From NCBI GenBank assembly GCA_945891505.1, contig CAMDDL010000023.1, positions 1 through 37,904 on the forward strand: a stretch of 37,904 bases of DNA, written 5' to 3'. Both the position numbers and the translations under genes were made by a program. The DNA comes from Maricaulis salignorans (GTDB lineage: Bacteria > Pseudomonadota > Alphaproteobacteria > Caulobacterales > Aquidulcibacteraceae). Positions 6,515 through 37,904 of this stretch are shown here, piece by piece; position 1 is the first letter of the stretch, and each line of letters opens with the position of its first letter. The notes beneath the pieces were generated by a model that was not told where the DNA came from, searched no databases, and was given only the letters and a program-made list of their open reading frames with translations.

Positions 6515-9500
6515 CAGAATTTCCTCACAACTTCGAGGCTCCAACTGCGGCCACTGAGGAGGGCTTGGCTGACACCTGCATCATAACCGAAAGCACCTGA
6601 CGTTAATGGCGGCGGCTCATCGGTAACATTGGCGATAGACAGCCGTACCCGCGTATTGGCGAGCCATTTTGGCGATGCAGTTTCAAACTTGTAGCCTACC
6701 GATAAATTGTACGTCACAACTGGATCGATTACCAAGCGATAGAGTGTTCTTCCGGCGGTGAAGAACGGCTCGATATAAGAAGGCTTGCCGAGACTGTCGT
6801 AAATCGCCTGCGTCGTTGTGGCCCCTGAATCATGGGTTTTGCCGACATGATAAATCCCAAGGCCCGCGTTCCATGCGCCTTTATCCCAGTTGATATTGGT
6901 CGTGCTACGCCACTTTGCGGCACCATTGGCATAAAGGCCATTATTCTCGGTTGGTGCGACATTGACGGGTGCAAGCGTAGTGAGCGAGCGATCCAAATAG
7001 CTCCAGTCTGAAGTAACGAGAATCCGGCCCCAAGACTGGCGTGGCATCGCATAGCGGAATCCAAAATCCACGCCCTCGTGTTGGCTGCTCGATAGGTTCA
7101 AGAACGGCTGGTAGCGCGCGAAGATACGACCGGCTGGAGCTGCCGGGTTGGTTGGGTTAGCGGCATTATAAGCGGCAAATGCAGCACGATCTTCAGGTGT
7201 CAGCGCGTAACGCTGGACATCTGGATCGCCGCGATAGGTTGCGCCACTGCCAATATCGATTTGGTTGACGGCGACACCGGCCGCAATCTGTGCCTGCGTA
7301 TAGGCGCGCAACAGCGCCGTATCGCTCGCATCAATCTGTGCGGTACTGCGTTGGCCAAGCAAATTGGTGCGGTCGATGCTCCACAGATCAGCGGTGAGGC
7401 TCAGCCCCTTGATACCCGGAACGTCGAACACGATGCCATAGGTAGTGCCCTCGGATTCCTGCGGTTTTAGATCAGGGTTGCCGCCAAAATAGGTACGCTT
7501 AACGTAAGGACCTTCGTTCAAGAACGGATTGCGATAAGCATCGAGATCACCGGCACCCGCCGTGATGGACCAACGCGAACTGGTATAAAGAGCTGCCAGG
7601 CTTGGTGCCATGAAGCCCTCATTATAGGAGCCACGTACCATCAACCAAGACGTCGGCCGCCAGTTTACGCCAATTTTCGGCTTTGTGGTCTCACCAAAGT
7701 CGCTATAGCTTTCGAACCGTGCCGAGGCGGTCAACTCAAGGCTATTCACCAGCGGTATTTCGCGTTCGGGCGAAACCAATGGCACGACTGTTTCGGCATA
7801 AGCACTGGTGACTTCGCGCTCCCCAAACACATCGGGTCGGGGTGGGTGCAACAAAAAGTCGTTGTTCTGAGGGTCTAGCCCCGAGGCGGCAGGGTTTTCA
7901 CCGCTAAACGGCGGACGCACATCGCTTAACTCTTCCCGACGAAACTCCACACCAAAGGCGGCTTTCACCTCATTATCCCAAAAGGAGAACAAGGTGCCCG
8001 AAGTCCTAAAGTCGGCGCTCGCGATAGAGCTTTCTGCGCTGCGCGAATAGACTTCCGAGAAGGAATCTACAACCGACTGCGGATTGGTAAAAGGCTGGTC
8101 AGCTACGACGGCACCATTTGCGACGCGGAACGTGTAGCCAAATGGATTATAGGCGCCGCTATCGGTTCGCGCGATGGCGGCTTGGAGCTTGCTTTCACGA
8201 ATGTCCGGGAACGCGTCATCAGTGCCGCTGACTTCGTTGTAGAATAGCGAGCTCTCCCACTCCCAAGTCTTGCCAAACTTGCCACGCACGCCGCCAACGA
8301 TCCGGAAGACGTCCGCTTTGGTTTCGACACTTTCGGCGGCCAAGTCGCGAATGGTTAGCTGGGTGAAACTGACGGTACGCGGTGCACCAACCACGCGCGC
8401 CGTGCCGTCGGTGTTTGGTGCGCCGGTGACGTGGTAGAAGCGCGAGCCATAAGGGTTGAACGGGCTATCAATCGGCATCACCATCAGCTGATCTGACGTC
8501 GGCGCGTTGAGTGCCAGAGGCTGGCGACGCATGGTGGACGACGAGCCGTAATAACCAAACTCACCAAAGGCAGTGAGCCGCGAGCTAATGTCATACTCGG
8601 CCGTCACAAAGGCATTGGCACGAGTTGTCTTGGGTGAAGCAAAGCCAAACTGATTGAGGTCCAAGAAGAATTCTGGGTTGGTTGCGCGGCTAGGTGCCGC
8701 CGTCGTCAGCGCAGGTGTGCCGTTCACAGGCCGGAAGTAATTGTTGGCCGTTGATGTTCCAATCCGAAAGGTAGGCCAGAAGCCACGCGCGGAACGTGCA
8801 TCAAAGGGTCCGCCCAAGGCGTTAAATGGCGCTGGCGCACGGTCCACGTTCAAGGATGTGCGGCTGAAGTCGCGTTCGGTCAGAAGCGTGGCATCGCGGG
8901 ACAGCCCTTCGAATGTGCCAAACAGACGCCCCCGGTCGTCTGCGAAGCGGGTTCCGAACGTTACAGCGCCCTGCAGACTCTCGCCACCGCCAGCTTCAGG
9001 CTGGCTAAAGCGCAACAGTGCCTCAACACCCTCAAAGTCGCGTCGCAACACGTAGTTGATCACGCCACCAACAGCATCCGAACCGTAAACAGAGGATGCG
9101 CCATCGCGCAGCACTTCAATCCGCGCGATACCTTGTGTCGGCAAGTGGTTGATGTTGACTGCTTGCGACAAACCAGCGGTAAACGGATTGATGGCCATGC
9201 GGCGACCATTGATCAGGACCAGAGTTGCCGTTGCACCCATGTTGCGAAGGTTCAAATTGGCATTATCGCCCCGCGCACCAGAAGAGCCCAAACGAGTTTC
9301 GTTCTCGGGCAAATTGCTTACCGATGGCAGAGAAGTCAGCAATTCAGACGGCAGAAGCGCACCGCGCAATTCAATCGCGCGCTGATCCAATACCGTGATT
9401 GGAACCGTTGTCTCAAGGTTCGAACGGCGAATGTTGGAGCCTGTGACAATGACGGTTTCAACTTCACGAGCAGGCTGCTCACTGGCTTGTTGGGCCGTGG

Positions 9501-25432: not shown

Positions 25433-27288
25433 TGGTCAAGGAGCTTGAAAGCACGGAGGATAAACCAACCGGCGACACCGCAGTGGTTGAGCGCGTCAAA
25501 GTCGTTCAGAATGTTATGATCGCGATGCGCGATGGTATCCGGCTTGCGACAGATGTCTATCTGCCAATAGACGGAAAGGCCAAGCGACCAGTGGTGCTAG
25601 AGCGAACCCCTTATGGCAAGCAAAGCAGCAATCATGGCGACCGTACCTTCCAAAATCCCGTCCCAAAATCTAGACCTGAAATTGCTCGTTGGTTCGCGAA
25701 CAAGGGCTATGCCTTTGTGCTGCAGGACTGCCGGGGACGAAACGGCTCGGAAGGGGTTTTCTCGAAATATGTAAATGAAGGCGATGATGGCGAGGACACG
25801 CTGAAATGGCTTTTGGCGCAAGATTGGTGCAACGGAAAAGTCGCGACATTGGGTTTGTCTTACGGTGCCCATGTTCAAGCAGCCCTCGCCTCCCTTAACC
25901 CAAAAGGGTTGGAGGCGATGGTTTGGGATTCGGGCGGATTCTCTAATGCTTGGAAGAGTGGCATTCGCCAGGGTGGCGCGTTTGAGCTTAAACAACTCAC
26001 TTGGGCAATGACCCACGCGCGCCTATCACCGGCAACTTTAAACGATCCGGTGCGCCGCGCTTATCTGGAAGCCCAGAGCATCAGAGATTGGATTGGCATC
26101 AATCCGTGGTCGGAAGGCCAATCCCCTCTTGCCCTTGCTCCAGAATACGAGAGCTATGTGTTGGAGCTTTGGCGTAATGAGACCTTTTCCGAATTTTGGC
26201 GCCGGCAGGGCCTTTATGCCGCGGGCAATTATGCAGGATTCTCCAATGCGCCAACGATGTTCATCTGCAGTTGGTACGACCCCTACGCTTTGACCACGAT
26301 CGAGAACTTCGAAGGCTTATCAAAGCTCAAAGATGGGCCGTATCGAATGATCTTGGGTCCTTGGACGCATGGGCAGCGCTCGGTAACCCATGCTGGCGAT
26401 GTTGATTTTGGCCTAGCAGCCCCATTGGATGGCAACATCGCAATTGGCTATGACGAATTGCGGCTGGACTGGTTCGACCAGAATCTTTCAGTGCCGCTTG
26501 ATGCACGATCAACGGGCAATTTGGTCCAGCTTTTTGTTATGGGCGGCGGTTCAGGGCTAAAAACAAGTGCTGGGAAAATGGACCATGGCGGCAGATGGCG
26601 ACATGAGCGAACTTGGCCTATCCCCAATGCCATTGCCACACCGCTTTATCTCACACAGGAAAACGCGTTAAGTCTTGAGGCGAGCGAACAGAGCGGATCG
26701 ATCAATTGGGTTCATGATCCCAAGAACCCCGTTACCACACGCGGCGGCGCTATTGCATCAGGAGCGCCGGTCATGGAGGCGGGTGCCTTCGATCAAGGTC
26801 ATTTTCCAAGTCAGTCAATTGCTTCATTTCAAACAGCAACCCTGGACCATGACCTTGAAGTCACTGGTCCAATCATGGCCAAGCTTTGGATATCTTCTAG
26901 CGCTGTCGACACCGATGTTTGCCTCAAGCTCATGGATGTATATCCACCTAACCCGGACTATCCAGACGGCTATGCAATGAATCTAAGTCATGGCATTCTG
27001 AGGCTGAGGTTTCGCAACTCGTGTGAAAAAGCTGAACTCATGACGCCGATGGAAGTTTATCCAATTGAAGTGACAATTTTTCCGACAAGTAATTTGTTTG
27101 CGCGTGGCCACCGTATCCGGCTTGATGTGTCGAGCAGCAATTTCCCCCACTTTGATGTGAACCCCAATACTGGCCACCCCGCAGGCCTTTTGGGTCCAGA
27201 ACCAGTCGTGGCAACGAACACGGTGCACTTTGGCCCTCTAACGCCATCCTGCATTATCCTGCCTTTCGTTCACGGCGAAGAAAACTAA
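25432..27288 (+). CDS. CocE/NonD (X-Pro dipeptidyl-peptidase S15-like) hydrolase
   Basis: 618-residue serine hydrolase of the CocE/NonD family, whose members cleave acyl esters, aryl esters or X-Pro peptides and acylated beta-lactams. An alpha/beta-hydrolase domain carries the triad: S143 in LGLSYGAH, D283 in SWYDPYAL and H313 in GPWTHG. The family motif QDCRGRNGSEGVF lies upstream. A C-terminal jelly-roll (about 440-610) contains LRLRFRN and HRIRLDVSSSNFPHFDVN. No signal peptide is visible, so it should act in the cytoplasm after import. It starts on the A of the AbgT stop codon and ends one base before the LysR start. Length is typical. Substrate unknown; given AbgT, an amide- or ester-linked aromatic acid conjugate is a reasonable guess. 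Confidence 0.92.
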   Translation: MVKELESTEDKPTGDTAVVERVKVVQNVMIAMRDGIRLATDVYLPIDGKAKRPVVLERTPYGKQSSNHGDRTFQNPVPKSRPEIARWFANKGYAFVLQDCRGRNGSEGVFSKYVNEGDDGEDTLKWLLAQDWCNGKVATLGLSYGAHVQAALASLNPKGLEAMVWDSGGFSNAWKSGIRQGGAFELKQLTWAMTHARLSPATLNDPVRRAYLEAQSIRDWIGINPWSEGQSPLALAPEYESYVLELWRNETFSEFWRRQGLYAAGNYAGFSNAPTMFICSWYDPYALTTIENFEGLSKLKDGPYRMILGPWTHGQRSVTHAGDVDFGLAAPLDGNIAIGYDELRLDWFDQNLSVPLDARSTGNLVQLFVMGGGSGLKTSAGKMDHGGRWRHERTWPIPNAIATPLYLTQENALSLEASEQSGSINWVHDPKNPVTTRGGAIASGAPVMEAGAFDQGHFPSQSIASFQTATLDHDLEVTGPIMAKLWISSSAVDTDVCLKLMDVYPPNPDYPDGYAMNLSHGILRLRFRNSCEKAELMTPMEVYPIEVTIFPTSNLFARGHRIRLDVSSSNFPHFDVNPNTGHPAGLLGPEPVVATNTVHFGPLTPSCIILPFVHGEEN

Positions 27289-28206
27289 ATGGGCAAGGCA
27301 ACTGCCACCCGAACACTCAAGAACTTCAATCCGCGGGCAATGGAGATATTCCGCGAAGTCGTTCGAATGGGCTCTGTCACATCCGCCGCAAAGAAGGCAG
27401 GGCTTGGTCAGCCAGCCGCAAGTCGCTTGATCGCCCAGTTCGAACAGGATGTTGGCTTTGAGCTCTTTCATCGTGACAAAGGTCGCCTCACACTCAGTCC
27501 GGATGGACTCTTGCTCTATGATGAAGTTGTAAGAGCCCTCGACAATATCGCCCGTGTCAGGATTTTAGCCAGCGACATTGCCGAATTTCGATCCGGTCAA
27601 TTGCGCATTGTGGCACCGCCCAGCTTGCTTGAAGGATTTTTGTCAGAGATCGCAGCGGACTTTCTGAAGCTATATCCCAAAGTTCGCCTGACACTTGAGT
27701 CTGGCGGGGTTGATACGGTGAAGGCCATGATTGCATCGCGTGCTGTCGATGCTGGCTTTGTCAAACTTCCCTTGGAAAGAACCGATTTAACAGCCGAGTC
27801 CATCTTGGAATGCGGGACAACCTGCGTGATCCCGGCACAGCACGAACTTGCACAAGCCAAGAGCGTTGATGCGGTCGCTTTACGCAATGTTCCGCTCATT
27901 CTATTGGGGTTAGGAAGCAGTTCCAGAGCCCAAGTCGAAGCCGCCTTCGCGACTGCCGGCGTCGTCCCAACAGTCCTCGTCGAAACGCACACAATCGGTA
28001 GCGCGTGCGCTTTGGCCGCTCGTGGCGTTGGCATCGCAATCGTCAACCACGCCCTAGCCAGTGCCTATGTTCGGGATCAAATAATCCTCCGCCCATTCGT
28101 GCCTGACATTCGGCAAGACTATGCCTTTGTAACCGCCGATCCGACACCTTCACGGCTCGCCAAAGCATTTCTCGAGTGCTGCAAGGCCTCGCTCCTAAAC
28201 AAGTAA
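27289..28206 (+). CDS. LysR-type transcriptional regulator
   Basis: 305 residues: N-terminal winged helix-turn-helix (about 14-73, with AMEIFREVVRMGSVTSAAKKAGLGQPAASRLIAQFE and FELFHRDKGRLTLS) and a two-lobed effector domain (about 97-300). LysR proteins bind a small inducer and usually activate nearby genes. It begins immediately after the CocE stop (TAA-ATG), so it is the last gene of the TonB receptor-AbgT-CocE operon and probably controls it and itself. A cis-encoded LysR at the end of its operon, rather than divergent, is less usual. A plausible binding region is the 185-base receptor/capA gap. Effector unknown. Confidence 0.93.
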   Translation: MGKATATRTLKNFNPRAMEIFREVVRMGSVTSAAKKAGLGQPAASRLIAQFEQDVGFELFHRDKGRLTLSPDGLLLYDEVVRALDNIARVRILASDIAEFRSGQLRIVAPPSLLEGFLSEIAADFLKLYPKVRLTLESGGVDTVKAMIASRAVDAGFVKLPLERTDLTAESILECGTTCVIPAQHELAQAKSVDAVALRNVPLILLGLGSSSRAQVEAAFATAGVVPTVLVETHTIGSACALAARGVGIAIVNHALASAYVRDQIILRPFVPDIRQDYAFVTADPTPSRLAKAFLECCKASLLNK

Positions 28207-28723
28207 GCCCGCGTGCCCAGTATTTCATCAGAATCAAAGCCTTCACAAAAGCTTAGGTGATGAGCAGCAATTTTTATGAGCTCAAGAGTTCCCGTAGTAG
28301 AACGGCCTTATCGGAAATGAGCTGACATAGCCCATTAAAATCTAGCCAAGAGCTTTTCTGCGTCGGCTTGGGCAGAGCGGGACAGAATGAGTTGGATTAG
28401 GGGGAGGTTTGCAAGATATAAGAGGGCGACTTGCATGAGCTTTCAGTGCTCTGTTTTGATTGATGTTATTGTAAGTCATGTTGATGGGGTCATGACTTGC
28501 AGTGTGTCGTGGCATGTAAGTCGGCATAAGTCATGTTGAAACGTTCACAAATCGCACTTACTTTGCCGCAGACAATTGATCCACAGTCGTAAAGCCATGT
28601 TTGTTTGGATCAAACTTCTCTAAAAGGGGTCGCTGTTCTGCATACGATGCAAGCCGACACAACGGGCGGAGCAAGTGTTTTACTTCGCCTAGTCCCGTGG
28701 ACTCCTTTACGGGCTAAACGTTG
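28207..28723. other. 517-bp convergent gap with short repeats
   Basis: Between the LysR gene and the convergent sulfatase. It contains TAAGTCATGTTGA twice (28472-28484 and 28527-28539) with partial inverted echoes (TCATGACTTGC at 28490-28500; ATGTAAGTCGG). A weak bulged stem (CCCGT 28694-28698 with ACGGG 28709-28713) lies just beyond the sulfatase stop. I see no gene. Confidence 0.5.
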
Positions 28724-30370
28724 TCAGTTCGCCCAATAGACATATTCTTGATCCGGCGTCCAAGGCGCATTCAAGGGCACATCGATCCGGATGGCATCCT
28801 CTACCAAGGCTGGCCACAAGGGCTTGGGCATTTCAGCGTCGTGGGCCTGCAGCATCGCCTTCATAGCGGCCACCCGATCAGGCTCCGCCTCGGCTAAATT
28901 CTTCTTCTCAGTCGGGTCGGTCGCTAAATTATAGAGCCAAGCTTTGTTTGGATTGCCAGCAACTTGCAGCTTCCAATCTCCCTGGCGCACAACGCGGTAG
29001 GCACCTGAACGCCAAAACAAAGTGCGCGAGGCCAATTGGGGGGTGCCGGTGACAAATGGCAAGAGATTCACCGTGTCCATCGCGCGATCACCTGGAACCT
29101 TCGCCCCAGCAATTGCCGCGGCCGTCCCATAGAAATCAAGATGGTGTGCGGGCATTGTTATTTTTTGTCCCGCGCTGATCTTGCTCGGCCATCGCATCAG
29201 ATATGGCACCCGAATCCCGCCTTCAAAGAAAGTGGCTTTCCAACCCCGATACGGCTGATTGATGCCCGGAAGGCCAACATACCAAGCCCCACCATTATCG
29301 CTGGTGAACACGATAATCGTATTTTCATCCAAGCCATTTTTCTTGAGCGCCGCAACAACTTCGCCAACACCTCTATCCAAGGCACGGATCATGGCACCAT
29401 AGACGCGTGTATTGTGATCCTTGATCCCGGAAAGGGCGTCAAAATCCTCACGCTTGGCCTGCAACGGCGTATGGGGCGCATTGTAAGCCAGATAGAGGAA
29501 GAAAGGCCGGTTGGCATTGGCCTCAATCGCCGCAACCGCCTGATGGGTGTAATAGTCGGTCATATATTCGCCGACATGAAATCTTTGACCGCCATTCTTC
29601 TGAACGGCGTCGGTGCCATAAATCCAAAGGAAGCGGTCGATTGGGTCAAACTCAAGCTTGGCATTGACGACGTCTGGATGATTGTCTGGCAGAAACTTCC
29701 CTGCCCCAAACATGATCCCCAAACTCTCATCAAAGCCTTGTGCTTCCGGCCGCATCTTGGCCGCTTCACCAAGATGCCATTTGCCGACATGCAGGGTTCT
29801 ATAGCCCTTGCCCTTCAAAAGCTCTGCGATTGTAATCTGATCCTCGGGCACGCCCATGTTCTCCATGGGCGGCATCTCGGCTTCGCGGTCTGCGTGATAG
29901 ATCGGCTGATGCAAGCGCCCTTCAACTGGGGCCCCTAAATTACGGGCAAAGGCCTTTGGAACCGCGGTAAACTCAAAGCCGAACCGGGCGGGATAGCGCC
30001 CTGTCATCAAAGCCGCTCGCGAGGGGGAGCATGTCGCATTGCCAGCATAGCCTGTACTGAACTGCGCGCCTTCTTTGGCAAGCGCATCAATATTGGGCGT
30101 CGGCACAAGACCGTTTGCAACCCCTGTTCCGGTTGCGGTCAGATCATTGATCCCCAAATCATCGGCCACGATCAAAATGATATTAGGAGGACGCTCGCCT
30201 GCCGGAGGAGTGTTCGGCCCCTTTTCCCATGTGACAGTCTGGGTCGGTGCAATCGGGTTTCGAACCTTATCGATTGCTGCCGCAATTTGTATCGGGAAAA
30301 ATTTGACTGCGACAAACGCGCCTATCAAAAGCACGGCAGCACTTCCCGCTGCGATCCGCCATTTGCTCAT
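28724..30370 (-). CDS. Type I sulfatase (arylsulfatase family)
   Basis: 548-residue formylglycine-dependent sulfatase hydrolysing sulfate esters. An N-terminal signal anchor (about residues 5-31) places it in the periplasm or on the membrane. Metal ligands appear in IILIVADDLG (D70, D71). The modification motif CSPSR (Cys114) fits CxPxR and is followed by AALMTGRYP. Further active-site stretches are LHVGKWHLG, YLAYNAPHTPL and VFTSDNGGAW. Maturation needs a formylglycine-generating enzyme, which is not in this window. The ATG at 30370 has a GGGGG run 6-7 bases upstream and is preferred over 30397. It lies 63 bases behind the GST-like gene in the same direction and may be co-transcribed. Substrate unknown (aryl, steroid or polysaccharide sulfate). 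Confidence 0.93.
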   Translation of the reverse strand: MSKWRIAAGSAAVLLIGAFVAVKFFPIQIAAAIDKVRNPIAPTQTVTWEKGPNTPPAGERPPNIILIVADDLGINDLTATGTGVANGLVPTPNIDALAKEGAQFSTGYAGNATCSPSRAALMTGRYPARFGFEFTAVPKAFARNLGAPVEGRLHQPIYHADREAEMPPMENMGVPEDQITIAELLKGKGYRTLHVGKWHLGEAAKMRPEAQGFDESLGIMFGAGKFLPDNHPDVVNAKLEFDPIDRFLWIYGTDAVQKNGGQRFHVGEYMTDYYTHQAVAAIEANANRPFFLYLAYNAPHTPLQAKREDFDALSGIKDHNTRVYGAMIRALDRGVGEVVAALKKNGLDENTIIVFTSDNGGAWYVGLPGINQPYRGWKATFFEGGIRVPYLMRWPSKISAGQKITMPAHHLDFYGTAAAIAGAKVPGDRAMDTVNLLPFVTGTPQLASRTLFWRSGAYRVVRQGDWKLQVAGNPNKAWLYNLATDPTEKKNLAEAEPDRVAAMKAMLQAHDAEMPKPLWPALVEDAIRIDVPLNAPWTPDQEYVYWAN

Positions 30371-30433
30371 CTGTTTCCCCCTAAAGTCCCACGCCATTAT
30401 TCGGCGTCATGTCGCGTTTATTTCTAGTGGCAT

Positions 30434-31585
30434 CTAGGCCAGCACCAAAACATTGTCGTTCCGCGCTATTTTGCGCTTTGTTGTTAGCGCCATCATGGCA
30501 TTTCCACCGGTGCGTTCAAGTAGGGCGTCCAGCCGCTCACGGTCGACGCCAGTCAAGGCCGGTGCCGCCGTGCGGGCTCGCTCAAAATGCCATAGCGCAT
30601 GGGGCTGGCTGGCCCGCTGCATCACCACGTCACGCCACGCATAACTGACACGCCCGACATGGGGATGCACTTGTCGTCGACCATCATGGGATACAAGTGT
30701 TCCAGGGTCGGGGGCCTCAAGACCATCCACCCAAGCGTCAAAGCATGCGACATCGGCCTTTAGACCGGGACCCCATTGGGAAAACAGGAATGCCAAGATG
30801 GGTTCAAGGGTTTCTGGAAGCGCATCATCTTCAGGAAATCCTATCGCGAGGTCCTTAAAGTCGCCGTCCTTTAGGCCCGGCATATTCATCCGCTCTGTCC
30901 AACGATAAACCGAAGGTGCCGTCGTTTTCATGAGAAATGCCGGGACAGGATCGCGGGCAAGATGCGCATATAAAGGTGCCATCATCCCAAAGTCAGCAGC
31001 ACTGGGACAGCCACCGAGAAAATAGGGGTAGTTCTGAAAATGGATCTCCAGCAAAGCCAATAGCTCTTTGTAGCTGGCCTCCATTGCCGGGATAACTTCT
31101 GGCGTCACACCAAGGTTCGGCAAAAAGTCCGCAAAGCGGGACATGAGTTTGCCAGCCTTCTCCATCCGATCGATATAGGTTGGCGCAGGTACCGCGCGCG
31201 AAAACTCATTGCACAGGAAGTGTTCCTGCTGTTCCCGATAAGACCAGCGATAATGCATGGCTATCGCCATCAGATAATTGGACCCAAAGGCATCAATCAA
31301 GTCTGCAACAATCCGCTGGACTGGCCCGCTCGGGACAAAACTGGGCGCGGCAACACGGCTTTCGATATGATCAATCATGGCCGTGGTATCTTGAATAATC
31401 TCGCCGTCAGGTGCCCGCATGACAGGAATCACTTTGAGACCAACTTGGCGAATGATGTCGCCAACAAAATTGGGGTCAGACGCCATGATCTCTTCATAGG
31501 CTATCCCCTTCTTGATCAGATAAGAGCGGATTTTTCCCGTATAAAGTGAATGGGGTGTGCCCCAAATTGTATAAAGTTCATCCAT
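30434..31585 (-). CDS. Glutathione S-transferase-like protein with long C-terminus
   Basis: 383 residues. The N-terminal thioredoxin-like GST domain (about 1-80) has TIWGTPHSLYTGKIRSYLIKKGI, VIPVMRAPDG and QDTTAMIDHIE, where the cis-Pro and Glu/Asp-Thr/Ser positions that bind glutathione are recognisable. A helical C-terminal domain follows with LGGCPSAADFGMMAPLYAHLARDP. About 140-160 residues extend beyond a usual GST (200-230 residues); this part is not recognised. I chose the ATG at 31585 (MDELYTIWG) over 31639 because the fold begins there and AGGA is just upstream, although spacing is short. It may conjugate glutathione to electrophiles or be a non-catalytic relative. Upstream gene of the sulfatase pair. 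Confidence 0.83.
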   Translation of the reverse strand: MDELYTIWGTPHSLYTGKIRSYLIKKGIAYEEIMASDPNFVGDIIRQVGLKVIPVMRAPDGEIIQDTTAMIDHIESRVAAPSFVPSGPVQRIVADLIDAFGSNYLMAIAMHYRWSYREQQEHFLCNEFSRAVPAPTYIDRMEKAGKLMSRFADFLPNLGVTPEVIPAMEASYKELLALLEIHFQNYPYFLGGCPSAADFGMMAPLYAHLARDPVPAFLMKTTAPSVYRWTERMNMPGLKDGDFKDLAIGFPEDDALPETLEPILAFLFSQWGPGLKADVACFDAWVDGLEAPDPGTLVSHDGRRQVHPHVGRVSYAWRDVVMQRASQPHALWHFERARTAAPALTGVDRERLDALLERTGGNAMMALTTKRKIARNDNVLVLA

Positions 31586-31748
31586 GTGTCCTGACTTCCA
31601 CTCCCAGCAAATCACATTTTGTTTTGGCCAGTCTTGCACAGGGTTTTGACTTCAACAAATGCGAAACTGCGTGACAGGGGACTGGGCTTAAACTGCTAAA
31701 GGGTACGGATTAGCCAACATACTGAATGACGGCGACATAAATTTAGCG

Positions 31749-31929
31749 GGTTGAGGCACTCAAGGAACAGGTGCCGATTGTCTCTGAACGCGGCGTAGAA
31801 ACTACCCCGGCCAATCTTCATTTCATCTAGGAGATCCTAAAGGGATGACGCCCGTTAGCCATTGCGCCAGAAGAGCTTCATTGCGCTCTCCCTCGCAGTC
31901 ATGACGTCGAACTCTATAGTGCGTGCCTT
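31749..31929 (-). pseudogene. Truncated tetR copy, inactivated
   Basis: Matches the first 60 codons of the intact regulator at 34481-35056 without gaps. The position of the start codon is AAG instead of ATG. Codon 25 (Tyr) is TAA (31855-31857) and codon 31 (Ser) is TAG (31837-31839). Similarity ends abruptly at 31749, so the rest of the gene is missing. It cannot make the DNA-binding domain. Confidence 0.92.
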
Positions 31930-31938
31930 ACATAATTA

Positions 31939-31967
31939 TTGACTGATCAGTACAGAATTGCAATGCT
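31939..31967 (+). promoter_or_regulatory. TetR operator and promoter of operon 1
   Basis: TTGACT (31939-31944) resembles a -35 box and overlaps ACTGATCAGT (31942-31951), a perfect 10-base palindrome. A second perfect palindrome, ATTGCAAT, lies at 31957-31964. Both elements recur at the intact tetR divergon. The likely regulator is the TetR at 34481-35056. The -10 box is weak (AATGCT at 17-base spacing). Confidence 0.7.
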
Positions 31968-32020
31968 GGAATCTTGTAATTGGTGTGATCACGAATTGGA
32001 TCATCGACTGGCGCTTGGGG

Positions 32021-32488
32021 ATGAATATGATGATCGCAGTCTTGATCGTGCACGGCCTGCTTGCAGTTACCCTGCTCGGTGCAATCACACACCAGTGTGT
32101 ATCGGCACTCCGAGCCAAGCCTGCCCGCACCCTGTCCTTCGTCGACCGCTACACGAGCGTGAACCAGCGGGTGTTCACATGGGCGGTTGTGATGCTGTAC
32201 GCGACGACGACCCTCTCGGGGGCGATCATCTATCCGTCTTACCGGTTGAATGTGCGCGTCCCATTCGAGGAGATGTCGCTAGGTTGGGCAGTGGGCCTTT
32301 TTGAGCTGAAGGAGCATTTCGGCGGCCTTGGGCTATGCCTTCTGCCTCTCTATGTTTGGCTCTGGCAACCGCAGCAAACGCAGAGCCACGCCCGCGACCG
32401 GCTTGCAATCACCGTGATCCTTGCCTTTATCGTGTGGTGGGACTTCCTAGTTGGCCACGTGCTCAACAATATCCGGGGTCTGCCATGA
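32021..32488 (+). CDS. Four-helix membrane protein, operon 1 gene 1
   Basis: About 155 residues with four predicted membrane helices (MIAVLIVHGLLAVTLLGAI, WAVVMLYATTTLSGAII, GLGLCLLPLYVWLW, ITVILAFIVWWDFLVG). Histidines lie in or beside the helices (VHGLL, ITHQ, KEHFGG, VGHVL). Membrane-embedded histidines could ligate b-type haem, but I recognise no family and this is inference. The open frame extends to a TTG at 31958 that lies inside the operator, so I start at the ATG at 32021. The ATG at 32027 has GGGG seven bases upstream and is equally possible. The stop overlaps the next gene as ATGA. Confidence 0.75.
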   Translation: MNMMIAVLIVHGLLAVTLLGAITHQCVSALRAKPARTLSFVDRYTSVNQRVFTWAVVMLYATTTLSGAIIYPSYRLNVRVPFEEMSLGWAVGLFELKEHFGGLGLCLLPLYVWLWQPQQTQSHARDRLAITVILAFIVWWDFLVGHVLNNIRGLP

Positions 32489-32802
32489 GATTGCGCTTCT
32501 CGCCCATCATCTTCATGCTGGCTTATTGCCTGATCTATATCGCGGCCTTGCTGTGGGACCTGCCTGCGTTCCTCTACTATCCCCTGCACGGCCAATTGAG
32601 TTGGGGCCCTGAGGTCGTAAAGGGTCAGGGACCAGCGATGGCTTGGTACGGGATCATGGCCGAGGCCGCGCTGATCGCATCTATCCTCGCTATCATTGTT
32701 CCAGATCGCTGGTTTGCCAATCGTATGCAAAACGTCCTTTGGACTGTCCCTGTGGCGGCCATGCTAATCTGCACCTTCCTGATGAGGACCTTCTTTGGAT
32801 GA
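32485..32802 (+). CDS. Small membrane protein, operon 1 gene 2
   Basis: 105 residues with three likely membrane helices (IIFMLAYCLIYIAALLW; AMAWYGIMAEAALIASILAIIV; VLWTVPVAAMLICTFLM) and a periplasmic loop LPAFLYYPLHGQLSWGPEVVKG between the first two. No recognised family. The start is fixed by a four-base ATGA overlap with the preceding gene, and its own stop overlaps the following gene the same way, which indicates a tightly coupled operon. It is probably a membrane partner of the four-helix protein and the two exported proteins encoded behind it. Confidence 0.78.
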   Translation: MRLRFSPIIFMLAYCLIYIAALLWDLPAFLYYPLHGQLSWGPEVVKGQGPAMAWYGIMAEAALIASILAIIVPDRWFANRMQNVLWTVPVAAMLICTFLMRTFFG

Positions 32803-33176
32803 GACGACGCGCTATAGTAACCGTCCTCGTGAGCCTCTGCACCCTAGCCTGTGCTGGCGGCGCTTGGGCGCAGTACACCTATAACCCGAACAATCCCGAC
32901 GAGCAGGGGTCAAATATCCGCTATTTTGGCTCTGTGAAGGATGAGAGCGGCCAGGCCCTAAAAGGCGTCGCCATCTTGGTAAAGCACGCCTATGTCTTCA
33001 CAAGCGACGAGGCAGGAAGATATGTCGGCTATGTTCCTGCCGACCCTTCGCCCAAGCCGGTCGTAATCGGCTGCGCCAAACCCGGCTACACCCTTGTGCG
33101 CATGACCAAGCGCGCAGGCTCAACGAGGCAAAAACTATGGGTCCAAGCCGACTGCATCTTGCGCAAGGCACGTTAG
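32799..33176 (+). CDS. Secreted carboxypeptidase-regulatory-like (Ig-fold) protein, operon 1 gene 3
   Basis: 125 residues with a Sec signal peptide (MRRRAIVTVLVSLC..GAWA, cleaved about 24/25) and one carboxypeptidase-regulatory-like beta-sandwich: GSVKDESGQALKGVAILVKH..VFTSDEAGRYVGYVP and GCAKPGYTLVRM. Such domains are structural or ligand-binding modules in the envelope, without catalysis of their own. The same module is found fused to a haem domain in the operon 2 lipoprotein. The ATG overlaps the previous stop by four bases. The 3' end overlaps the next gene by 40 bases. A role as scaffold for the CxxCH protein encoded next is inference. Confidence 0.8.
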   Translation: MRRRAIVTVLVSLCTLACAGGAWAQYTYNPNNPDEQGSNIRYFGSVKDESGQALKGVAILVKHAYVFTSDEAGRYVGYVPADPSPKPVVIGCAKPGYTLVRMTKRAGSTRQKLWVQADCILRKAR

Positions 33177-34372
33177 CGGCACTGGCCTTGGGGGCCGCGG
33201 TCCTCTTACAGGGCGAGCCACCTGCTGCCAGCCCAAGGTCCGAAACTCTGTTAGCGGCCAGCGTTGAAAGCCTGCGCCTCGGCGGTGACTTGGTGGCGCA
33301 GCGGCGACACATGTGGACGGCTTTTGCGGAGATGGTCTCTGGCAAGGAACCGGCCTTCGTTCACTGGCAAGGAGAAGGCGGTGTCTTTGATGCCGAAGCG
33401 GCGGCAAAGAGACCCGGAGGCATCCAAGGCTTCTTAAGGCCCAAGAGCATCGGCGGCGACCCGCATTTAATCGGCGCGCCGATAATTGCCTATAACCTTT
33501 TCAATCCCGCAGCCTTCGCTCACATCCGCGCACAGGGCCTCTATCGCAAAGCGACGTTGGATCGCCTGCAGCTCACCGGCAAGACCGGATCTGTGCCGCC
33601 CTTCCCTGCCGCAGCGATCGTGATCAAGACCGCTTGGTGGCCGGTCGCGCCAGAGGGCCTGACCGCTATGCCCGTCTGGGATCCCGAACTCAACCCGCCG
33701 GACCCCAACGGCAATCCCCATCTAGGCTGGGCGCGGGTCGTGGCGGTCGATCCCGCGAACAACTCCCCTGACAAAACTGCGGCTGTCCAATTCATAGGCC
33801 GATCCTTTCCCGGGGCGCGGCGTGTCCAGCTTGAGGCGTTCCATCATGTGGCCGTGGATGCGGCAATGGCCAAGCAGTTCGCCCTCGATCCCGAGAGCAA
33901 CCGCACAGCCATCATTGCGCTGGGTCGTCCCATCGCAGTCAATGACCGACTGGCCCTGGTCGGGATCAATATGATGACCCATGAGCAGCAGGACTGGGTT
34001 TGGGCAGCTTTCTGGTGGCATGACCGGCCTGGGGTCGGCCCCTTTGCCGCAGACCGTCCATCCGATCTGCGTGGCCCATGGCGCAACTACCTCATGCAAG
34101 TGGCTTTTGACGCCGAGACGCCAAGGGCGTCTGACGGAAGCGCTCATATCTGTTTCAACCCTTGGCTAGAGGCTCGGTTCCCCGACCATGGACAGGGCGG
34201 TGGAACGGTCAGCAACTGCCTGTCCTGCCACCAGCGCGCCAGCTATCCAGCCGCGCCCTTCCTGCCCGTCACACGCGGCGCACCCAATCTGCGCGAGGAT
34301 CCAGCTCTCGCACCCGACCGCCTAAGGACCAGCTTCCTCTGGTCGTTGCCCCTACACGCTCAGCAGGACTAG
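33137..34372 (+). CDS. Exported CxxCH (c-type haem) protein, operon 1 gene 4
   Basis: 411 residues. An N-terminal hydrophobic segment (LAALALGAAVLL, about 12-24) acts as signal or anchor. A single CxxCH haem-attachment motif, CLSCH (C361, C364, H365), lies near the C-terminus in a NCLSCHQRASYPA context. The long N-terminal part has many Trp, Pro and His (WDPELNPPDPNGNPHLGWARV, VQLEAFHHVAVDAAM, VWAAFWWHDRPG) and is not recognised; this is much longer than an ordinary monohaem cytochrome c (about 100 residues). GAGG eight bases before the ATG supports the start despite the 40-base overlap with the upstream gene. High G+C compared with the rest of the window. Likely a periplasmic redox or substrate-binding protein. 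Confidence 0.8.
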   Translation: MGPSRLHLAQGTLAALALGAAVLLQGEPPAASPRSETLLAASVESLRLGGDLVAQRRHMWTAFAEMVSGKEPAFVHWQGEGGVFDAEAAAKRPGGIQGFLRPKSIGGDPHLIGAPIIAYNLFNPAAFAHIRAQGLYRKATLDRLQLTGKTGSVPPFPAAAIVIKTAWWPVAPEGLTAMPVWDPELNPPDPNGNPHLGWARVVAVDPANNSPDKTAAVQFIGRSFPGARRVQLEAFHHVAVDAAMAKQFALDPESNRTAIIALGRPIAVNDRLALVGINMMTHEQQDWVWAAFWWHDRPGVGPFAADRPSDLRGPWRNYLMQVAFDAETPRASDGSAHICFNPWLEARFPDHGQGGGTVSNCLSCHQRASYPAAPFLPVTRGAPNLREDPALAPDRLRTSFLWSLPLHAQQD

Positions 34373-34480
34373 GCGACGGCTCATGTGCCAAGCGGACCAA
34401 AGCCCAGAGCTGTTGAGTCCCCCCCGCTCTACCAACTGTCCCGCCAATTGTAGGTTCAGCGTCCATGGTAGCTAGTCTGT

Positions 34481-35056
34481 TCAGGGGGGTGCGGCTTGCA
34501 GCAGACGCAGCGCGGTATCGATTGCCTCGAGGCTTTGACGGCGCGGGAGTTTGCGGCGGCTTGCCACCCGGACGCCTTCATTCACCAGCATGAGGTAGGC
34601 CCCATATTCGGCAGCGCGTGCCGGAGAATAGCCAGCTTCGCACAGGCACTCTTCGAATAGGGTCTGCAATTTCGACAGCCATGCGCTCGCCGCCACGGCC
34701 AGTTCGTCGTCTATTCCTGCGAGTTCGATGACGGTGTTGACCGCCATGCACCCAAAGCCAGCTTTCGATCCTTCACCATGGTTCAAGCTGTGTTGCAGGA
34801 AATACCTTATGGCATCCATCGGCGGGTGTTTGTCCCTGATCCTCTGGACAATGGCACCGGTTCGCTCCGCGAAAAGGTTGAGGCACTCAAGGAACAGGTG
34901 CCGCTTGTCACCGAACACGGCGTAGAAACTGCCGCGGCCAATCTTCATTTCATCCAGGAGGTCCGAAAGGGATGACGCCTGGTAGCCGTTGCGCCAGAAG
35001 AGCTTCATTGCGCTCTCCCTCGCAGTCATGATGTCGAACTCTATAGGGCGTGCCAT
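34481..35056 (-). CDS. TetR family regulator
   Basis: 191-residue repressor-type regulator. The N-terminal helix-turn-helix (about 10-56) reads ARESAMKLFWRNGYQASSLSD..LDEMKIGRGSFYAVFGDKRHLF, the classical TetR/AcrR pattern. The rest is a helical ligand-binding domain with a conserved-looking GFGCMAVNTVIELAG, common in TetR proteins that sense small organic or electrophilic compounds. It is divergent from the operon 2 lipoprotein gene; its ATG is only about 12 bases from a near-palindrome (ACTGATCGGT, 35069-35078). The same operator stands in front of operon 1, next to a dead copy of this gene, so one regulator probably controls both operons and itself. Inducer unknown. Confidence 0.93.
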   Translation of the reverse strand: MARPIEFDIMTARESAMKLFWRNGYQASSLSDLLDEMKIGRGSFYAVFGDKRHLFLECLNLFAERTGAIVQRIRDKHPPMDAIRYFLQHSLNHGEGSKAGFGCMAVNTVIELAGIDDELAVAASAWLSKLQTLFEECLCEAGYSPARAAEYGAYLMLVNEGVRVASRRKLPRRQSLEAIDTALRLLQAAPP

Positions 35057-35121
35057 ACTTAATTATTGACTGATCGGTACAGAATTGCAATGCTGGAATT
35101 TCATAATTGGTTCGATCACGA
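34876..35121. repeat. 246-bp direct repeat, right copy
   Basis: Intact counterpart of 31749-31994. It covers the first 60 codons of tetR, the divergent promoter and operator, and the start of the leader of operon 2. It ends at the ribosome-binding region of the lipoprotein gene, where the two copies stop matching. Confidence 0.92.
35066..35094 (+). promoter_or_regulatory. TetR operator and promoter of operon 2
   Basis: TTGACT (35066-35071) overlaps ACTGATCGGT (35069-35078), a palindrome with one mismatched pair, followed by the perfect palindrome ATTGCAAT (35084-35091). It lies between tetR and the divergent lipoprotein gene, the usual place for a TetR site. Both elements are conserved in front of operon 1. 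Confidence 0.7.
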
Positions 35122-35131
35122 GGAAAAGCGC

Positions 35132-36829
35132 ATGAAGAAGTTGTCTTTGATTATTTTCATGAGTTTGGCACTCGTAGCCTGTTCGGCAAAGGAGTCTTCC
35201 AAATCTGTGCAGGGTGTGACCCCGGGGCTGTTGACGGGGGTCGTGAACGACGGTCAGAGCAAACCGCTCAACGGTGTCATGGTGCGGGTGACAAACGAAA
35301 CATCCGGTATCTCGCAAAGCGTATTCACCGATGAACAGGGTCGATACGAACTATCGACGGGTTTGACTGGGGACGTCACGGTCAGGTTCCGCCTACCCTA
35401 TTACCGAGACGAGACGAGTAAGCTGATGCTCACCGCTGGGAAGTCTGTCGAGCAGAAGGCGGTTCTGAAGCCGATGACCGACTTGGCTGAGATTTCCGAA
35501 AGCCTGCCATCGGCCTATCACTTCGGGAACCTTGCCTTTGACAAGGATCCAAAGTCGATCAACAGCTACCAACACCTGCAGCGCGATTGCGCGGGCTGCC
35601 ATGCCTTGGGCAATAGCGTCACGCGTGCACCCCGTCCGCTTGATCAGTGGGTGGATATGGTCACGATCATGCAGAGCTATCTTGGCAATCCAGATCCTAA
35701 GCTGATCAAGAGCCGCGCCGCGTTGCTATATGCCGGGTTCAACGGACAGGCACCAACGGTACGTCCGGTGTTTCCAGTCGACGCCGAAACCCAGCAGGCC
35801 GTCATCCATGAGTACAGACTGGAAAACACCATCTTCCCCCATGACGCGGACATCAATCCTGCCGACGGCCTAGTATATACTGTCGACCGAACGGCAAGCC
35901 AGATGGCGGTGACGGACCTTGTTTCGGGAAAGTCTGTCTTTTTCGATCAGCCTCCGTCGATGCGTCCCGCCGTTGGCAAAGGGGACAGCTATTCCGCACG
36001 CTCCAAGGAGCCGGGTCCGCATTCCTTGGCGTTGGGCAAGAACGGGTATTGGTACACAACCAATGCCGGGTCCGACGAGATCGGCGTTTTCGATCCAAAG
36101 ACCCGGACGTGGAAAGCTTCATTCGTACTTCCTGAGCCTGCACGCTACCCCCATACAATCCGCATTGGCCGCGACGGCATCGTCTGGTTCACGCTGGCGG
36201 CCTCGACGCAGGTGGGCCGACTTGATCCGGTCAGCGGGGACATCAAGCTGATCTACCTGCCAAAGCTCAAGCCACTCGGGGGATCCGCTGGCACCGTGCC
36301 CTATGGCATCGATATCAGCCCTGTAGATGGGCGCATCTGGTATGCGCGCCTTTGGGGTGACAAGCTTGGTGCCATCGATCCCGCGACGTTTGCGGTGACA
36401 GAGTTTGACTCGCCGGTCGAAGGGCCGCGTCGTCTTCGCTTCGACGCTGAGGGTAAGCTTTGGGTAACGGGCTACAACGACGGCATGATCGCCAAGGTTG
36501 ATACGCAGAGCATGAAGAGCGAGGTCTATCCCATGCCGGAGTTTGCCGCAGGCTATCGCCCGGCCCCCTATGCCCTTGCGATTCATCCCGCCACGCAGGA
36601 GGTTTGGATCAACGAGACCTTGACGGACCGTGTCTATCGTTTCCTGCCGAAAGAAAAGCGGTTCATCGTTTACCCCATGCCACTACGCGGCACCTTCACG
36701 CGTGACTTCACCTTCACGGCGTCCGGGTGGGCCTGTACGACAAATAGTCCGATCCTGAATGCGGCACTGGAAGGCAATGAAACAGAAGTGATCTGCATTG
36801 ATCCAAGCGGAGCAAAGGCGCGCAAATGA
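35132..36829 (+). CDS. Lipoprotein: Ig-like domain, CxxCH haem site and Vgb-like beta-propeller
   Basis: 565 residues in three parts. The leader ends in a lipobox (LVAC, Cys17), so the protein is lipid-anchored in the envelope. A carboxypeptidase-regulatory-like Ig domain covers about 35-105 (GVVNDGQSKPLNGVMVRV, VFTDEQGRYELS). A short cytochrome-like segment has CAGCH (C153, C156, H157) and ALGNSV behind it. From about 240 to 550 there is a Vgb/streptogramin-lyase-like propeller with repeated blades (ENTIFPHDADINPADGLVYTVD, GRDGIVWFTLAASTQVGRLDP, AEGKLWVTGYNDGMIAKVD). Vgb lyase cleaves streptogramin B, but propellers of this type occur in many exported proteins, so lyase activity is not claimed. 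The ATG at 35132 has AGGA seven bases upstream; the frame also runs from a TTG inside the operator. It overlaps the next gene as ATGA. Confidence 0.85.
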   Translation: MKKLSLIIFMSLALVACSAKESSKSVQGVTPGLLTGVVNDGQSKPLNGVMVRVTNETSGISQSVFTDEQGRYELSTGLTGDVTVRFRLPYYRDETSKLMLTAGKSVEQKAVLKPMTDLAEISESLPSAYHFGNLAFDKDPKSINSYQHLQRDCAGCHALGNSVTRAPRPLDQWVDMVTIMQSYLGNPDPKLIKSRAALLYAGFNGQAPTVRPVFPVDAETQQAVIHEYRLENTIFPHDADINPADGLVYTVDRTASQMAVTDLVSGKSVFFDQPPSMRPAVGKGDSYSARSKEPGPHSLALGKNGYWYTTNAGSDEIGVFDPKTRTWKASFVLPEPARYPHTIRIGRDGIVWFTLAASTQVGRLDPVSGDIKLIYLPKLKPLGGSAGTVPYGIDISPVDGRIWYARLWGDKLGAIDPATFAVTEFDSPVEGPRRLRFDAEGKLWVTGYNDGMIAKVDTQSMKSEVYPMPEFAAGYRPAPYALAIHPATQEVWINETLTDRVYRFLPKEKRFIVYPMPLRGTFTRDFTFTASGWACTTNSPILNAALEGNETEVICIDPSGAKARK

Positions 36830-37464
36830 CCGTATTGTTCGATCCTTCGCTCTACTCAGCTATTTCGCTGATTGGACTGGCCTGGACCCTACTGACGCTC
36901 TTTCTGATGTTCTCGCCAGTGGGGCAGAGGTTGCTGTCCAACCCGCTGGGGATTGTTATCGCCGCAGCCGCGCTGTTTCCCTCGCTCTGGGCGGTGACGT
37001 CTCAGATCAAGGTGCTGACGGCGCTTACAGGCGGTATCGCGCCGCTGGACGTGCAATTCGGCTATCACCAGCCCGAAATCGTCCAGTTCGCTCAGGCCCT
37101 GAATGAGGGCGGCCGCAAGATGTATGCCCAATTCCAGCTTGGCGCCGACACGTTGGCCCCTCCCGGCTTCTGCTGTTTCCTGATGTGCGTCTACCGCTCA
37201 ACGGTTCGGTCACAGGTCGTTCGGACCCTTTGTGATGGGATGGCGTTCGTCTATCTCGTCTCCGTGCTCATCGCCAATAGCTTGATGCCGGTGATTATCC
37301 TTAACTATCCGGCGCAGGACGGCCTTGCTTTGTCGACGCTCTACTGGCTGATCCCCCTCTGTGACACGATCAAGTACTCCGTTCACGGCCTGGCCTGGCT
37401 CACCATCGTGACCGCCTGGCTCTGGCAGCTTGTAGGCATGATGCGGGCCCGCAAGTCGTCGTGA
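36826..37464 (+). CDS. Polytopic membrane protein, operon 2 gene 2
   Basis: 212 residues with about four or five membrane helices (SAISLIGLAWTLLTLFLMF; PLGIVIAAAALFPSLWAV; GMAFVYLVSVLIANSLMPVIIL; STLYWLIPLCDTI; HGLAWLTIVTAWLWQLVGM). The hydrophilic central loop contains FGYHQPEIVQFAQALNEGGRKMYAQFQLGAD. Cysteines cluster in APPGFCCFLMC. No family is recognised. The start is set by the four-base ATGA overlap with the haem lipoprotein gene, so the two are translationally coupled. It is probably the membrane partner of the lipoprotein, in the way the two small membrane proteins of operon 1 may partner its exported proteins. Last gene of the cluster. Confidence 0.78.
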   Translation: MTVLFDPSLYSAISLIGLAWTLLTLFLMFSPVGQRLLSNPLGIVIAAAALFPSLWAVTSQIKVLTALTGGIAPLDVQFGYHQPEIVQFAQALNEGGRKMYAQFQLGADTLAPPGFCCFLMCVYRSTVRSQVVRTLCDGMAFVYLVSVLIANSLMPVIILNYPAQDGLALSTLYWLIPLCDTIKYSVHGLAWLTIVTAWLWQLVGMMRARKSS

Positions 37465-37904
37465 CCTTCTTCGCCTTGAGCATTCCACGACTGACAATGA
37501 CGCCATCTTTTGCGCTGTCGATGAAGGTGGTGCGACGATCTCGTTAAACAGGCCTTAAAAGCTGACCGCGCTGACGGCTGCGCCGGTAATCATGGGACCC
37601 GATACCGCGCGAAAAAGAAGATTGCGCCAGCGCGACTTGGGGCAGCGGCGCGTAAGTCAAAGATACTGGCTAACGTGCACAAAACGGCGAAGTCCTGCCT
37701 AGGCCACATGGAAGAGACAACTGGCAAGTCACGAGCGGCTCTGCCATCGGCAAAAATGTGCTGGGCTCGGCGTTCGTGGCCCATTGTGGTTGTGGAGGGG
37801 ATGAGCGGCGAAAGCTGCCACTCAAGAGCGAGCAAACTCTCTGAATTGATAGCGGAAGTTTCGGGACCGGGTCAGGGAAATCAGTCGAACTGGCGGACAG
37901 AGAG
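37465..37904. other. 440-bp end region without a clear gene
   Basis: No convincing coding region; a minus-strand open frame (37590-37835) has no features I recognise. No strong terminator is visible after the operon. It contains the second copy of the 70-bp dispersed repeat at 37808-37877. The region continues beyond the window. Confidence 0.5.
37808..37877. repeat. 70-bp dispersed repeat, copy 2
   Basis: Partner of 9824-9893, in the same orientation, nearly 28 kb away. Roughly 80% identical by eye without gaps. The frame from the ATG at 37801 remains open to the window end, so a coding origin for the repeat cannot be excluded. Confidence 0.6.

Follow-up and report, generated by a model that had tools for sequence, protein, structure and literature searches.

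How operons come to join regulons has mostly been inferred from end states. A mobile promoter is a repeated promoter present at many sites. In the available text of two studies, existing promoters are described as having been copied before other genes in prokaryotes (PMC5906472 and PMC11111574, citing Matus-Garcia 2012 and Oren 2014), and in that of a third, concerted evolution by gene conversion is described between repeated bacterial sequences, the rRNA operons (PMC8022953). Here we analyse a window of 37,904 nucleotides from Maricaulis salignorans (contig CAMDDL010000023.1) in which a gene for a TetR-family regulator, here called tetR, stands with two operons, CDEF and GH, and in which the control region of tetR occurs twice. 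The locus resembles TetR-family autorepressors with divergent operons in its N-terminal helix-turn-helix, its LmrA/YxaF-like C-terminal domain and the palindrome in its divergent promoter region; it differs from them in having a second occurrence of the operator, to which a dead part of the gene for the regulator is joined.

The account which we propose, and which we hold to be very probably correct as a whole, is as follows. One autorepressing TetR would control both CDEF and GH, probably as one envelope or redox system. TetR, presumably in response to a ligand, would bind a 24-bp palindrome between overlapping divergent promoters and so block its own transcription and that of GH. A stretch with the control region and the beginning of tetR would have been copied before CDEF in the common ancestor of five genomes, bringing CDEF under the same repressor; the useless tetR fragment would then have been lost to different extents, with the operator and the forward -35 box kept, and in some lineages the left copy would seemingly have been overwritten from the right one, by gene conversion or repeated copying.

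A repeat search of window positions 26000-37904 found one ungapped direct repeat of 246 bp (31749-31994 and 34876-35121) with 22 mismatches (91% identity) and a spacing of 3127, as an earlier note on this DNA had claimed. When the right copy was compared with the whole 3.07 Mb genome, only two matches were found (E = 1.3e-130 and 1.1e-95). By the repeat search and direct comparison, the right copy comprises tetR codons 1-61 and the control region that precedes gene G. In the left copy the same 61 codons are a dead fragment (31749-31929, minus strand), 85% identical to tetR, and here too direct comparison confirms the lost start and the two stops described in the note: ATG has become AAG, TAC has become TAA at codon 25 and TCG has become TAG at codon 31, leaving one TAA and one TAG inside the fragment. 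The homology between the copies ends at a junction (31994/31995, read from the alignments) which lies ahead of the starts of both C and G, so that a homologous promoter region stands before two different genes. The mismatches are divided among the tetR coding part (15/181), a 36-bp operator/promoter block (1/36) and the remaining intergenic sequence (6/29).

A scan of genome contigs gave 18 loci, which we number with the prefix L (genomes have the prefix G; Win is the window locus, 'left' the copy before C and 'right' the copy before G). In four of them (L005, L006, L008 and L019) CDEF lies beside tetR and an eroded tetR start precedes C; the layout of an eroded tetR start before operon CDEF, followed by tetR and operon GH, is therefore found in the window and four other genomes. 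The remaining 14 loci comprise three with tetR-G-H and no CDEF (L007, L009 and L010), eight with a more distant tetR and three in which just an end of tetR is present. CDEF is also missing from a fourth genome, that of L111, and in the L019 genome the right copy is on a separate contig (L105). In total we compared five left and nine right copies, as L007, L009, L010 and L111, which lack a left copy, each contributed a right copy alone.

A search for gene C in ten of these genomes found it in the same four only (those of L005, L006, L008 and L019), and it is absent from 105 genomes of one family. Close copies of gene F occur in the window's genome (2/398 genomes matched, the other at 43% identity), in that of L008 (4/347 matched, others at most 37%) and in those of L005, L006 and L019 (6/348 matched, others at most 43%). 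At E = 1e-20, tetR was not found in the 60 other genomes of a 61-genome set of relatives, eight of which belong to the same genus; in a broader sample of the order, 17 of 398 genomes gave a tetR match, among them G318 at 91%. It may therefore be that the locus was acquired. A plasmid search with F returned three records at 35.5-39.9% identity and no close copy, and one with tetR returned 835 records, all below 60% identity, the 20 listed of the 835 reaching at most 36.4%. In four genomes, contigs start or end inside tetR (G416, contigs C284 and C190; G417, C37; G418, C56 and C25; G419, C155), which may reflect strain variation or repeated copies.

In two distant loci (L076 and L077; F about 42% identical), C, D, E and F form one run with a G-like gene at either end. 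As G-like genes are found together with CDEF there, CDEF and GH look like parts of one system, and a copied switch would keep both under common control. The stretches of L076 and L077 that were examined have no match to this tetR; G334, one of the two genomes, has a 50% relative of it on another contig. The earlier note had proposed that a second operon was recruited by copying of the promoter, followed by decay of the redundant regulator. This is supported, with the operator kept, in all five genomes found with CDEF beside tetR, but the operons so joined are not strangers to each other.

The gene trees bear on how often the copying took place. The five CDEF genomes form one clade in gene G (9 rows, support 100/100) and in gene H (8 rows, 98/97.9), which fits one gain of CDEF together with the left copy; the tetR tree, which has 7 rows and covers four of these five, neither shows nor rejects the clade (p = 0.084). 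Similarity along tetR-G-H is mixed, with the window's tetR nearest to L009 and its G nearest to L005. All five left copies have the same junction and the same leader before C. These observations, and the grouping of the L005 and L006 left copies (99/98), would be accounted for by a single ancestral copy with no later exchange, whose descendants drifted under selection for the operator. Such a history is, however, at odds with the rejection of left monophyly for the 89-bp control region (p = 0.00035; 0.0001 after realignment; 0.0035 by the approximately unbiased test without the operator; 0.0025 with paired genomes only), and with letters outside the operator that are private to the left and right copies of one genome (two in Win, three in L008, one in L005/L006, none in L019). 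We consider it unlikely.

The rejection of left monophyly is also what one would see if the control region had been copied to CDEF separately in several lineages. In keeping with this, the left and right copies of L008 pair in 4/4 trees (88/90 to 99/99) and those of the window in 3/4 (65/48, 59/0 and 74/73), and the far end of the copied fragment differs in each genome. Separate events could, however, hardly have repeated a near-end junction that is identical in 5/5 left copies, and the CDEF genomes are a single clade in G; independent duplications therefore seem to us rather improbable.

This small sample is best read as a single act of copying, after which some left copies were overwritten from the right copy. 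There are hints of such recopying, perhaps by gene conversion. Among the five right copies, the nearest to each left copy is its own for Win, L008 and L019, and that of L019 for L005 and L006. The pairing of each left copy with its own right copy is the lowest of 120 pairings (2/120 with its tie), also outside the operator, and with L005 and L006 treated as one lineage it ranks 1/24. The recopying step needs to be interpreted cautiously for several reasons: the left/right trees rest on 65-89 columns, and the support for the window pair is that given above; in the realigned all-column tree the window's left copy joins the L008 pair instead (50/22); the L019 copies pair in 2/4 trees only, with support of 41/0 and 56/0; the left copies of L005 and L006 form a group of their own next to the right copies of these loci, and the own pairs are rejected; and with operator columns alone, the own pairing ranks 18/120. 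It is possible, and we put this forward tentatively, that the two operators have been kept in step by repeated copying from the regulator side to the partner operon, with the dead tetR fragment serving as extra homology. If so, a regulon would stay together while its regulator and operator change, and recopying would offer two operators a simple means of keeping up jointly with a repressor that changes. The earlier note had also called the arrangement a frozen intermediate of regulon growth; the decaying copy is real, but it is not a fresh one in a single genome, as the arrangement is common to a clade within which the left copies form no clade.

The predicted operators were located with a matrix built from 22 distinct operator sequences of distant tetR relatives, none of the close loci being included. 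The best place in the window is the right site (35062-35085, ATTATTGACTGATCGGTACAGAAT, score 30.99) and the second best the left site (31935-31958, ATTATTGACTGATCAGTACAGAAT, score 30.35), both 24-bp palindromes; the third best place scores 10.7. The distant relatives (45-60% identity) make up 26 rows but 25 places, as L016 and L028 are one place. In 26/26 rows the best palindrome match is 14-16 nt away from the start of tetR, with a shuffle p below 0.05 in 17 and not in 9. Across this TetR subfamily, which by record titles spans alpha- and betaproteobacteria, a 24-bp palindrome with the consensus ATTCTGGACCGATCGGTCCAGAAT is seen at a nearly fixed distance from the regulator start (L011-L017, L022, L026-L033, L049, L051-L053, L057, L058 and L062-L065). 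Left out of the matrix were L034, L035 and L037-L040 (31-40% identity), the incomplete ends L018-L021, L036, L041 and L059, and the duplicates L050, L054-L056, L060 and L061.

Within the window's genome, the operator pattern matches without mismatch at the left and right sites only. A 22-base pattern with up to three mismatches matched 23 places in eight genomes, of which 13 have zero or one mismatch and correspond to eight right and five left sites, and ten have three; a reversed control pattern matched eight places. A second pattern scan covered ten handles, some of them one genome under two handles: the exact matches all fell on right sites, those of G318 and of the G418/G065 genome, while G334 had two matches with three mismatches, and G372, G321 and G1040 had none.

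In both copies, putative divergent promoters overlap the operator. On the plus strand, a -35 box TTGACT (31939-31944), a spacer of 17 nt and a weak -10 box AATGCT (31962-31967) make up the putative CDEF promoter (31939-31967), and the same boxes and spacing make up the putative GH promoter (35066-35094). The forward -35 box starts with TTGAC in 14/14 copies. On the minus strand, a consensus promoter scan found a promoter-like site TTGCAA-17-AATAAT for tetR (35062-35090) and its relict before the dead fragment (31935-31963), among four sites in the region scanned against 1.5 expected (sd 1.3). The tetR -35 box is changed in 3/5 left copies and in 0/9 right copies, as one would expect were the forward promoter the only one of importance on the left. 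The letters ATTGCAAT, named in the earlier note as unchanged, are indeed so in the window; we reject them as a part of the operator, since only two of their eight bases lie inside the 24-bp palindrome and they fit the tetR -35 box, being changed in 3/5 left copies and 0/9 right copies. The note's ten-base site, ACTGATCGGT on the right and ACTGATCAGT on the left, is likewise present as written but is only the core of the 24-bp operator.

We found that the operator differs less between the copies than does its surroundings. With each left copy compared with its own right copy and the five pairs pooled, 11/120 operator positions differ against 61/313 outside (p = 0.0093), and the predicted operator survives in 5/5 left copies. 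Six of the 24 positions hold all 11 differences; with counting from 0, these are 3, 11-14 and 20. In the matrix, 3, 13 and 20 belong to the four weakest positions, and 11 and 12 are middling. Cutting the sequence into three blocks gives p = 0.099 for the 5' part and p = 0.026 for the 3' part, each against the operator/promoter block; this cut leaves out the L008 3' part, which the pooled test includes with a 12-nt gap placed by hand. The refuting result named in the earlier note, an even spread of mismatches and no operator conservation in relatives, was thus not obtained with the five pairs pooled. The comparison of substitution density in coding and operator parts that the note suggested is weak in the window alone (1/24 against 8/65 outside, p = 0.43), and the case for operator conservation rests on the related genomes.

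The window's own p value would also suit a left repeat that is neutral debris of a rearrangement, with CDEF transcribed from another promoter and TetR inactive at the site, as would the fact that the consensus scan did not find the forward CDEF promoter. The pooled conservation argues against this, as do the 18 other operator positions, which never differ within any of the five pairs even though the adjoining tetR part has been variably lost, and we regard debris as quite unlikely. Nevertheless, several observations count against a conserved operator under control of this TetR. Taken singly, only the L008 pair reaches p < 0.05 (0.014, against 0.54 for L006 and 0.22 for L019), and the L005 pair has no operator conservation at all (5/24 versus 14/65, p = 1.0); L005 and L006 are, moreover, closely related, and the five pairs cannot count as independent. 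The inferred forward -10 box is weak, and is altered in 4/5 left copies and 1/9 right copies. The genomes of L005, L006 and L019 carry a second TetR of the same subfamily (47-49% identity) which could act on these operators. Finally, the left operator scores below the right one in 4/5 pairs and equals it in one, and repression may accordingly be weaker on the left. The left operator had been described in the earlier note as improved to a perfect palindrome, a claim that finds no support here: it scores no higher than the right one in any pair, by a matrix made without these loci, and the base that differs in the window also varies among right copies.

The tetR-like codons remaining before C (by blastn and tblastn) number 61 in the window, about 40 in L006, 19 in L019, 16 in L008 and 8 in L005. 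The longest remnant is therefore 61 of 191 codons, and nothing points to a copy of the entire tetR. Three left copies (Win, L008 and L019) have lost the start codon, which L005 and L006 retain. In L006 (12083-12316), ATG is followed by an open frame of 77 aa, of which about 40 codons are the tetR DNA-binding part and the rest unrelated sequence; that left fragments still make such an N-terminal piece of TetR and so modulate the system is nonetheless scarcely credible, given the lost starts, the two stops in the window, the 22 codons that are all that is open in L005, and the change of the relict tetR -35 box in L006 itself.

Genes C (32027-32488) and D (32485-32802), both on the plus strand as are the other genes of the operons, code for small membrane-type proteins with no Pfam match at E = 0.01. 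Since an ATG at 32021 is CTG in the four relatives (L005, L006, L008 and L019), C more likely starts at 32027 or 32030. We looked for the tail of a lost G-like gene in the leader of CDEF and found nothing convincing. Gene E (32799-33176) has a weak carboxypeptidase regulatory-like domain (20.7 bits, below the cut-off of 32.3), and gene F (33137-34372; 411 aa) has one CxxCH motif (CLSCH) and no Pfam match at E = 0.01. Gene G (35132-36829) combines a lipoprotein-like start (by eye), a carboxypeptidase regulatory-like domain (PF13620, 45.7 bits), a CxxCH motif and a Vgb-like propeller (PF24684, 82.5 bits). Its closest solved structures are streptogramin B lyases; as such a lyase it scores 47.5 (VgbB) and 43 (VgbA) bits against an NCBIfam cut-off of 600. 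Gene H (36826-37464) codes for a membrane-type protein with no Pfam match at E = 0.01. None of the seven proteins matched a defence family, and no Rfam match was found in the window.

The intact regulator (34481-35056, minus strand; 191 aa) belongs to the TetR family by both of its domains, the TetR_N helix-turn-helix (PF00440, 38.8 bits, cut-off 24) and the LmrA/YxaF-like C-terminal domain (PF21993, 42.1 bits, cut-off 27). It reaches no NCBIfam equivalog cut-off and is far from that of the acrylate regulator AcuR (28.2 versus 247 bits). Its best sequence matches among solved chains include 2i10, YxaF (1sgm) and CifR (6nsn), an epoxide-responsive regulator; the likeness to CifR is a sequence match only (E = 2.4e-12). 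In L010, a nitronate monooxygenase gene (7937-8911) lies between the promoter and G; in the right copies of L005, L006, L008 and L105 only its first codons are left there (by eye), and the window lacks even these. Elsewhere in the window, a 30-nt direct repeat (28472-28556; 73% alike, 55 bp from start to start) lies between a LysR-type gene (27289-28206) and a sulfatase gene (28724-30397); that it is a regulator site is only a guess.

A fragment of the repressor's gene thus still accompanies the copied site, at five different stages of loss, and other genomes have the regulator and GH without the second operon; together these allow the order of events, and how far the operator is constrained, to be measured. 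A control region with two copies in the genome does not amount to a mobile promoter, which is present in many. Among the open-licence papers that our searches listed, we recognised none, from title and opening of the abstract, on a repressor site copied along with a decaying part of the gene for its regulator, in five stages and perhaps recopied. In the concerted evolution described for rRNA operons (PMC8022953), the copies of one genome tend to be more alike than they are to the corresponding copies of other genomes; here a similar tendency is seen in part of the pairs, and what is copied is a control region of about 90-250 bp that carries a pseudogene fragment. As in promoter copying or propagation, going by what is available of PMC5906472 and PMC11111574, an existing promoter has been copied before another gene. 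The copying of promoters to new genes is therefore known; what appears new, set against these sources, is that a specific repressor site was copied along with a fragment of the regulator gene, with two copies in the genome and in an arrangement which is common to a clade, is preserved in five stages and has perhaps been recopied.

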